Shown here: positions 31,754-34,843 of the stretch, piece by piece
How the letters are laid out: the number at the start of each line of letters is the position of its first letter
Position numbering within the stretch: position 1 is the stretch's first letter
Assembly: GCA_024683455.1 (NCBI GenBank)
Contig: JAIKYE010000090.1
Span: 62,001 to 126,000, forward strand
Direction: 5' to 3'
Length of the DNA stretch: 64,000 nucleotides
DNA from: Bacteroidaceae bacterium
GTDB taxonomy: Bacteria; Bacteroidota; Bacteroidia; Bacteroidales; Bacteroidaceae
Program-made: the position numbers and the translations under genes
The notes under the pieces: model-generated
Told to the model about the DNA's origin: nothing
Seen by the model: the letters and a program-made list of their open reading frames with translations, nothing else
The model's database searches: none

Positions 31754-32560
31754 TTATTTTAAAATAAACCTCTTAACGGCAACAGCAACTCCATCTTTCT
31801 CGTTACTTTGAGTGATATAGTCGGCAGCTTCCTTTACGACAGTTTGCGCATTAGACATAGCCACACCAAGTCCTGCAAATTTTATCATACTTAAGTCATT
31901 GAAGCCGTCTCCGCATACCATCAGTTCTTCACGTTTTAAGTCAAGATGATTCAAAAGATATTCCAAACATTTTGCTTTGTCAATTCCTAATGGTAAGATT
32001 TCTAAGAAAAAGGGTTCGCTACGGTAAATGCTCATTTTGCCCTCATAATATGCCACCAGTTCTTTCTCCAGTACACTAAGTTTATCTTCATTGCCAACAA
32101 TAAGACATTTGGGTTCTGGAAAATTGATTTCGTCAAGGAAACTGTTTAATTTCTGGAGTTTCATCTTGTTTAGTTTTGCTTCATAGCGTACATATTGGTT
32201 TTCTATATCTTCGCATGCTATGCAGTTGTCCAGATAACTGAGAATTTTAAAATCCTCAGTATTGCCAACTTTATACAAATGCTTGTAAACGGAAGTGTCA
32301 AGTACTTTCTGGTATATGGATTCTCCTGTTGAACAGTCTATGATGAGTCCACCATTAAAGGCCAAAATATATCCACAATAGTCTTTCAGATGTAACTGTT
32401 CTGCCAAAGGCATAATGCCAGGCAAAGGGCGTCCGCTGGCAAGTACTAATCGTATGCCTTTTTGTTGTGCTTGAATTAATACGTCTAAAGTCTGTGGGGT
32501 TATCTCTTTCTTGCTATTGGTGAGCGTTCCGTCTAAATCAAGTGCAAGAATCTTATACAT
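31754..32560 (-). CDS. Cof-type HAD-IIB family hydrolase
   Basis: ILALDLDGTLTNSKKEI, VLASGRPLPGI, LMVCGDGFNDLSMIKFAGLGVAMSNA. Confidence 0.93.
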   Translation of the reverse strand: MYKILALDLDGTLTNSKKEITPQTLDVLIQAQQKGIRLVLASGRPLPGIMPLAEQLHLKDYCGYILAFNGGLIIDCSTGESIYQKVLDTSVYKHLYKVGNTEDFKILSYLDNCIACEDIENQYVRYEAKLNKMKLQKLNSFLDEINFPEPKCLIVGNEDKLSVLEKELVAYYEGKMSIYRSEPFFLEILPLGIDKAKCLEYLLNHLDLKREELMVCGDGFNDLSMIKFAGLGVAMSNAQTVVKEAADYITQSNEKDGVAVAVKRFILK

Positions 32561-32583
32561 TAAATTCCAGGATATGTTTTGAG

Positions 32584-33117
32584 TTATTCTTCTTCTGTAT
32601 TCGCTTTGCGCAAAATTAGTGTTGTGGCACCAATGGTTATGATGGATGCATCATCAAGGTAAATACGATCTTGGTCCTTTAGAATCTCATTCATATAGAA
32701 TGTTCCTGTATTGCTGGGCGCGTCTCGTAAAATATATTGCAGTTTACCCTTCTTGCTTCGTTGAACGCGAATAATGCAATGTTTGGTGTCAATGCTTGGA
32801 TCAACAGTTTCAATAGGCTTATTAATGGTAGAGCCTTTAACGTAGCGTCCAAATATGTTATCACCCATCTCCAGTGGAATTACCTGCTTATAATGAAAAA
32901 AATTTTCTACCACAACGATGCTACCAAGCTCCTTAGCATGTTCCTGTTCATCAAGATTCTCATTCTTGCGAGTCTCTTTGATTTTGCTTGTACCTATGCG
33001 TATTCCAAACTGGCGATTACACTCGGGACAAACGAACACCAATTGTTGTCCTTCTTCGTATTGTTTTTCATCAAAGGTGATGTAATTGTCGCACTTAGGG
33101 CAACGTACTCTTTTCAT
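32584..33117 (-). CDS. FHA domain protein with N-terminal zinc ribbon
   Basis: MKRVRCPKCDNYITF...VFVCPECNRQFGI; FHA signature FGRYVKGSTINKP, TKHCIIRV, LRDAPSNTGTFYMNEIL. Confidence 0.85.
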   Translation of the reverse strand: MKRVRCPKCDNYITFDEKQYEEGQQLVFVCPECNRQFGIRIGTSKIKETRKNENLDEQEHAKELGSIVVVENFFHYKQVIPLEMGDNIFGRYVKGSTINKPIETVDPSIDTKHCIIRVQRSKKGKLQYILRDAPSNTGTFYMNEILKDQDRIYLDDASIITIGATTLILRKANTEEE

Positions 33118-33130
33118 TTGAATAGTTTTG

Positions 33131-34135
33131 TTATTTATTCTCCATTATCCATGCGTTGGAGAACTCTTTGCTTTTGTTACGCAATGAGCGAACCTCTGTT
33201 AAAGCATCTTCTCTTGAGGTAAAGTTCGGAACTAGAACTCTTAGAACCGTTCCAGAATTATCTACAACGGCTTTAATACCCCGCTCGTTCAAGTTTTTGC
33301 AATATGTTTCCGCATTTCTGAGAGGTACACCGCAACAGATAACAACAGAGAATGTGGGATTCTCATCTATATTTTCTGCTTGTGGGTTGTCTGAGGCATT
33401 TTCTTTGTCGATAGACTCTATAACGTCCTCCTTTGAGGATTTTATCCCCATTTTATTATTCTCTTTCCGAATACAGTTATCTTGTTGTTCTGTAATAAAA
33501 CTAGAGGGTAGGAATAGCTCAGAGTGAATATCTTGTTGTTGTGTAAAGACATCCTGAGAAACGGGTGTGCTAAAAGCAAAGAATAAAACGATGGCAGCTG
33601 CGATGGCAGCTGCGTAGTGAAGCAAACGCTTGTTAATATTGATGGTTACATGTTTTGCATCAGTATTGACAATTTTCTTCTGTGCTTGTTTGTGAGTGGG
33701 TAATACAATCTGTTTTGTGGGGTGAACGTGGATGGCATCCAATCCGTAAAGTGATGGTGAAGCCACACCAGCCTGACAAGGAATAAACTTTATTTTCCCT
33801 GTTGCCTCATCCTGGACAAAATCTCCGATGCTACCCAGTTCGAAACTTCCATATTCATTAAGTTCCTGTTGAATGTTCTCAGTAAACTCTAGTGTTGCTA
33901 TGTAAGCTTCTTCTGTTGATATTTGATAGCTGGCAGAGATTGTTTCAATGAATCGGGTGTCTGTTTCATTCACCTCATTCGTAAAGCTTAATGCTCTATA
34001 GGGAGGCAGAAGGATTTCTTCCTCCTCAATCCACTTGCTGGGTACATAAGTTACCTTAAACGTACCCAGTCTTGGTACCACAACTAAGTTGTGGTATAGC
34101 AATTGAAATTCTATATGTCTCGATAGATTTATCAC
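33131..34135 (-). CDS. HU-CCDC81-like / transmembrane / SPOR domain protein
   Basis: N-terminal HU-like MINLSRHIEFQLLYHNLVVVPRLGTFKVTY...LPPYRALSFTNEVNE; TM LLHYAAAIAAAIVLFFAF; C-terminal SPOR FSVVICCGVPLRNAETYCKNLNERGIKAVV...LRVLVPNFTSREDAL. Confidence 0.85.
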   Translation of the reverse strand: MINLSRHIEFQLLYHNLVVVPRLGTFKVTYVPSKWIEEEEILLPPYRALSFTNEVNETDTRFIETISASYQISTEEAYIATLEFTENIQQELNEYGSFELGSIGDFVQDEATGKIKFIPCQAGVASPSLYGLDAIHVHPTKQIVLPTHKQAQKKIVNTDAKHVTININKRLLHYAAAIAAAIVLFFAFSTPVSQDVFTQQQDIHSELFLPSSFITEQQDNCIRKENNKMGIKSSKEDVIESIDKENASDNPQAENIDENPTFSVVICCGVPLRNAETYCKNLNERGIKAVVDNSGTVLRVLVPNFTSREDALTEVRSLRNKSKEFSNAWIMENK

Positions 34136-34180: not shown

Positions 34181-34214
34181 AAAAACTTATTAACAATGTT
34201 GTTAACAAGTTTTT
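34181..34214 (-). terminator. Terminator for the OmpH/Skp-like gene
   Basis: AAAAACTTATTAAC-aatgtt-GTTAACAAGTTTTT inverted repeat abutting the stop codon. Confidence 0.65.
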
Positions 34215-34843
34215 TACTTGTTGGCTTCTTTCTCTGCCTTAATATGTTCGTTTACTTCAGCACTGCGTTTGTAACGCTTATTTAGACCTTTTACGATATC
34301 TTGTGTAATGTCATACTTGGGATTTGCGATTAGCAAATTATCTCCTGCTTTTACCATTACATAATCATACTTTTTGGTCTTGTTGTAGCGCTTAAGAAAA
34401 GACTGTATACTGTCTCTTGCTTCTGTATTGATGCGAGCTTGCTCTTCGTTAAACTCATTGTTCAGGCGGTCTGCCAATTGTGCCAATTCCTGCTGTTCGC
34501 GTTGAATGTTACTCTGCGCACGTTCCAGTTCGTCTCGGGTTGTGAAACCATTGCTTTCATACTTTTTCTGGACGGCAGCAGCATGACCCTCCAATGTGCG
34601 TTGTTTTTGGGCTAATGTGTTTTGTATGTTGTTTCCTTTGTGTGTCAATACCTCGCTATAATCTTTATAGAGCTGGTATTGGCTCATCAGTGTGTCTAAC
34701 TCTACGTATGCAATCTTAATGCCAATAGATTGCACTTCTTCGTTCTCTGTTGTTTCGGCTTCTTCTGCAGCTTTGTTACAACTTGATATCGACATTCCCA
34801 AAGACATCGCGAAGATGCCAAGCAGATATTTCTTCATATACAT
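34214..34843 (-). CDS. OmpH/Skp-family periplasmic chaperone-like protein
   Basis: Lipoprotein-like N-terminus (SISSCNKAAEE), IAYVELDTLMSQYQLYKDYSE, coiled coil, DYVMVKAGDNLLIANPKYDITQDIVKGLNKRYK. Confidence 0.85.
   Translation of the reverse strand: MYMKKYLLGIFAMSLGMSISSCNKAAEEAETTENEEVQSIGIKIAYVELDTLMSQYQLYKDYSEVLTHKGNNIQNTLAQKQRTLEGHAAAVQKKYESNGFTTRDELERAQSNIQREQQELAQLADRLNNEFNEEQARINTEARDSIQSFLKRYNKTKKYDYVMVKAGDNLLIANPKYDITQDIVKGLNKRYKRSAEVNEHIKAEKEANK

Follow-up and report, generated by a model that had tools for sequence, protein, structure and literature searches.

The locus considered here raises the question of what is done by a protein that carries an HU-like part in the cytoplasm and a SPOR domain in the periplasm. 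It lies in the window, a 64,000-nucleotide stretch of a contig from a Bacteroidaceae bacterium, and the protein is referred to below as HU-SPOR. The first-pass annotation had read it as a tether between chromosome and division site, with a phospho-peptide reader encoded next to it. The architecture itself is already known, as Pfam names its HU families and it is conserved across class Bacteroidia. A chromosome-partition role was reportedly predicted for bacteroidete HU-CCDC81 members by Burroughs et al. in 2017, and searches of the open-licence literature turned up no experimental study of HU-SPOR or HU-LysM proteins in Bacteroidota.

Architecture, fold and distribution of HU-SPOR

The HU-SPOR gene (33131..34135, minus strand) has a GTG start codon and encodes a protein of 334 aa, in which the reading frame, Pfam, AlphaFold2 (AF2) and Foldseek together delineate two HU-CCDC81 domains, a transmembrane (TM) helix and a C-terminal SPOR domain. 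Both HU-like domains pass the curated Pfam cut-offs. Domain 1 (aa 1-59; 33959..34135, minus strand), with a reduced acidic arm (WIEEEEILLPPY), scores 53.8 bits against PF18174 (HU-CCDC81_bac_1; cut-off 26 bits), and domain 2 (aa 63-130; 33746..33949, minus strand) scores 44.5 bits against PF18175 (HU-CCDC81_bac_2; cut-off 35 bits). The SPOR domain (aa 261-333; 33137..33355, minus strand) is matched by PF05036 over aa 273-330, also above its cut-off (27.3 versus 21 bits).

An AF2 model built on 47 sequences gave pLDDT values mostly of 81-96 in the HU region and a beta-alpha-beta-beta-alpha-beta order in aa 261-333, while the linker at about aa 190-255 was modelled with low confidence and is presumably disordered. 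When the model was compared with the PDB by Foldseek, the HU fold was recovered with a probability of 1.00 (target-normalised TM-score 0.7-0.78, deviation of about 2 Å over 66 residues), and the SPOR part matched those of CwlC (1x60) and DedD (6ztg). Whole-query E-values were modest (0.002-0.1) because the HU and SPOR domains are small fractions of the query. A class-wide profile of HU-SPOR matched the SPOR structures of CwlC (5e-8) and FtsN (1uta, 2.5e-6). Both the domain order and the two folds that had been proposed from the sequence are thus borne out.

The attribution of this architecture to Bacteroidetes also holds, since PF18174 was found across class Bacteroidia, in 227 of 296 genomes, 220 of them with a score above the cut-off, and in 130 of 166 genera, as a single copy in each, a distribution that makes a chance observation untenable. 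These HU-CCDC81_bac (PF18174/PF18175) proteins share the architecture of the window protein class-wide, whereas the window copy has diverged, with about 21-36% identity to relatives, and its HU part is acidic to an unusual degree. Among the profile matches listed from other classes of the phylum, the majority extend over the SPOR half alone. One 349-aa frame in another class (G525:C40:52933-53937) matches HU2 as well as SPOR, and a simpler form of HU-SPOR may, on the evidence of this frame, be older than the class.

The HU part: DNA grip or protein docking

HU and IHF proteins combine their fold with a basic surface and a long basic beta-arm, and HU-SPOR has the fold in each half without these other features, as judged from sequence charge, the AF2 model and profile matches. 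The net charge of the two HU domains of the window protein is -12 (pI 4.1), of which domain 1 (aa 1-60) contributes -3 (pI 5.0) and domain 2 (aa 61-135) contributes -9 (pI 3.6); as a reference, the 92-aa HU encoded in the window's genome has a charge of +5 and a pI of 10.2. The corresponding region was negative in all 80 Bacteroides/Phocaeicola homologues (mean -8.7, all at or below -3), averaged -2.5 in 35 other-class proteins, and was near neutral in versions outside Bacteroidales. Profile matches to HU structures end at about HU residue 57, where the DNA-binding arm begins. Domain 2 keeps the helices and first strands of HU and lacks the beta-arm, in place of which AF2 places only a hairpin with 5-residue strands. 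Domain 1 lacks the first helix, and its arm region is shortened, with a tip that is acidic in Bacteroidaceae.

Eukaryotic CCDC81 and IJ34 are microtubule-inner proteins that, unlike HU-SPOR, have no SPOR domain. They belong to the same HU clade by Pfam description, and the second Foldseek match of HU-SPOR was a chain of the sea-urchin doublet microtubule (8snb_1K). The homologues IJ34 and CCDC81b have been described as inner proteins of doublet microtubules (PMC10105768, PMC11961760). The acidic HU part, the arm-less domain 2 and these microtubule-inner homologues together favour a protein-interaction module, which is, from sequence, the likelier role of the tandem. The HU part looks too acidic and too poor in arms for the usual grip on DNA; a non-canonical mode is conceivable, and a local basic patch may be compatible with the acidic overall charge.

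These features weaken the proposal that the cytosolic HU part binds DNA while SPOR anchors the protein at septal peptidoglycan, so that segregation is coupled to division. The HU fold and the N-in topology agree with such a tether, as do the flavobacterial-type homologues, which retain the HP at the arm position and are near neutral in charge, and the neighbour of HU-SPOR in genus g177, the product of which is a further HU-TM protein that ends in a LysM-like domain. Against it stand the strong acidity of the window and Bacteroidaceae HU parts, the absent arm of domain 2 and the acidic arm tip of domain 1, and the part that the eukaryotic homologues play in protein assemblies. The DNA grip assumed in the first-pass annotation therefore finds no support in the HU part, and the tether, plausible in outline, is poorly supported and in our judgement unlikely.

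A better candidate for a DNA-wall tether, as far as sequence can tell, is encoded elsewhere in the same genome. The gene for an HU-TM-LysM-like protein (G000:C23:9304-10440) lies directly behind that of the basic 92-aa HU, and the two form a unit (G000:C23:9017-10443; L155:5018-6444) between RimO and MoxR/Bat genes. This unit, a basic small HU followed by an HU-disordered-TM-LysM-like protein, was found in about 15 Bacteroidales genomes, and in three genomes of genus g177 (L086, L087, L088) the HU-TM-LysM-like gene is immediately upstream of HU-SPOR. The LysM domain passes the Pfam cut-off in the L087 copy (35.8 bits) and falls below it in the window genome's own copy, for which the label LysM-like consequently rests on alignment to relatives. 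The HU-TM-LysM-like protein shares with HU-SPOR an HU domain, a TM helix and a C-terminal domain of wall-binding type; it differs in having a canonical single HU with its full arm and a mildly acidic to basic charge, a LysM-like domain in place of SPOR, and a basic HU gene before it.

The FHA/zinc-ribbon protein and other neighbours

A gene that begins 13 nt downstream of HU-SPOR (32584..33117, minus strand) encodes a zinc ribbon (C6, C9, C30, C33) and a non-canonical FHA domain (D110, T137) that scores well above the curated PF00498 cut-off (31.7 versus 20.7 bits). The FHA gene lies directly downstream of HU-SPOR in all 80 named Bacteroides/Phocaeicola loci, at spacings from -128 to +62 nt, and adjoins it in all 26 sampled loci of the window's family, two sets that have at least five genomes in common and are thus not fully independent. 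Other neighbours of HU-SPOR are less well conserved. This neighbourhood upholds the proposed operon partnership within Bacteroidaceae, where HU-SPOR and the FHA gene are probably co-transcribed and their products probably partners.

The proposed reading of phospho-peptides fared less well. The FHA protein retains R91 and H113, and the Ser that contacts phosphate (SxxH) is replaced by Asp (D110) in 101 of 101 FHA sequences and the phosphate-contacting Asn (NGT) by Thr (T137) in 95 of them, the 101 FHA and 140 HU-SPOR sequences being likewise drawn from overlapping sets. Alignment by eye places these residues at what we take to be the equivalents of Rad53 FHA1 S85 and N107. The loss of both residues that mark a phospho-threonine reader renders phosphate-dependent binding doubtful on sequence grounds. 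The AF2 model of the FHA protein, made from three sequences, had a pLDDT of 43, and phmmer gave no match of the protein to the PDB. One FHA partner (locus L097, genome G328; 136 aa) apparently has no zinc ribbon, which could reflect truncation of the gene or an effect of the assembly.

The close pairing of the two genes leads to a second alternative, in which HU-SPOR is an envelope-anchored signalling scaffold whose acidic HU part serves mainly to hold the zinc-ribbon/FHA protein, or clients of that protein, at the division site, and division proceeds independently of HU-SPOR. The strict linkage in Bacteroidaceae suits such a scaffold, as does the far better conservation of the FHA protein than of HU-SPOR (61-62% versus 21-30% identity between the window and Bacteroides/Phocaeicola). 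However, HU-SPOR persists without an FHA neighbour outside Bacteroidaceae, and in eight other Bacteroidales genomes an FHA homologue is found with no HU-SPOR within 1.5 kb. Since the two are unlinked outside Bacteroidaceae, the FHA protein cannot explain the ancestral function of HU-SPOR, and we regard the scaffold as improbable. Very improbable is a non-septal wall sensor or transcription-related membrane protein, in which HU would alter nucleoid state or transcription while SPOR reports peptidoglycan turnover, as the HU part is without canonical DNA-binding features even if the adjoining zinc ribbon is compatible with nucleic-acid work and a SPOR response to denuded glycan outside septation is conceivable.

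The HAD hydrolase that had been noted after the FHA gene is present as a Cof-type HAD-IIB protein (31754..32560, minus strand; TIGR00099, 204.6 bits), and its gene, which here follows that of FHA, occurs in only five of 60 sampled loci, for which reason it was dropped from the functional unit as a lineage-specific neighbour. Directly upstream of HU-SPOR lies a gene (34214-34843, minus strand) for an OmpH/Skp-like protein whose start (SISSC) resembles a lipobox, and this gene has the same position beside HU-SPOR in two other loci of the window's genus. An anti-phage defence role for the locus was also considered and rejected, as PADLOC gave no match to any defence model.

Membrane topology and likeness to FtsN

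Lys and Arg are more numerous before the TM helix than after it in 140 of 140 HU-SPOR homologues, in keeping with the positive-inside rule. Together with the AF2 helix at aa 169-188 (33572..33631, minus strand), this supports a single TM with N-in/C-out orientation, and agrees with the earlier placement of the HU part in the cytoplasm and SPOR in the periplasm. HU-SPOR is thus predicted to have the topology of an FtsN-like bitopic SPOR protein. FtsN, DedD and DamX also consist of a cytosolic part, one TM, a disordered periplasmic linker and a C-terminal SPOR domain, although their cytosolic tail is short in comparison with the large HU-fold domain of HU-SPOR. A motif such as NYSxLNPF or NYAxLLP, located 4-12 aa beyond the TM, occurs in 57 of the 140 homologues against about two expected from shuffled sequences, an excess that is large, although the pattern was written after the sequences had been viewed and its enrichment is therefore post hoc. 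The motif is degenerate in the window's genus (ELFLP), and the window's own copy departs from the pattern; its juxtamembrane stretch ELFLP (aa 206-210; 33506..33520, minus strand) is a possible degenerate counterpart.

SPOR proteins with secondary roles are present in many bacteria. A survey of the best 30 of 44 SPOR matches from 12 Bacteroidia genomes, plus two from the window's genome, recovered HU-SPOR as the only one with a cytosolic domain and an internal TM. The others have a lipobox or signal-like start, or lack an internal TM as judged by a simple hydropathy scan, the sensitivity of which is imperfect, as it overlooked this helix in the G125 copy of HU-SPOR; the window's genome is 83% complete, so that a further bitopic SPOR protein could escape the survey. 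The second SPOR protein of this genome is a 165-aa lipoprotein encoded about 3.6 kb beyond the window end (G000:C6:129572; L246), the family of which is present in other Bacteroidaceae. The FtsN model TIGR02223 was over its cut-off in none of 13 Bacteroidia genomes and in one of 14 control genomes, and the window protein did not match it at E 0.1.

Because HU-SPOR is the only bitopic SPOR protein recovered, canonical FtsN did not exceed its cut-off in the genomes searched and the periplasmic motif is conserved, we favour, with a probability of about 0.5, the reading that HU-SPOR is a bitopic SPOR protein of Bacteroidia that works like FtsN or DedD and uses its HU part to dock proteins. Its SPOR domain would bring it to denuded septal glycan, where the short motif by the membrane would contact the septal synthesis machinery from the periplasmic side. 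The cytosolic HU tandem would face the cytosolic divisome as a docking module rather than as a DNA clamp, and in Bacteroidaceae the adjacent zinc-ribbon/FHA protein would be its probable cytosolic partner, its FHA domain most likely binding without phosphate.

We know of no established activator of septal wall synthesis in Bacteroidia, a major gut group, and HU-SPOR is the one SPOR protein of FtsN topology that emerged from genomes in which FtsN itself did not score. A tentative extension, possible though not the outcome we would expect, is that Bacteroidia have replaced FtsN: the fold of a nucleoid protein, having lost its DNA binding, would have become the cytosolic arm of a septal-synthesis activator, while the basic HU and its HU-TM-LysM-like companion would keep the link from DNA to wall.
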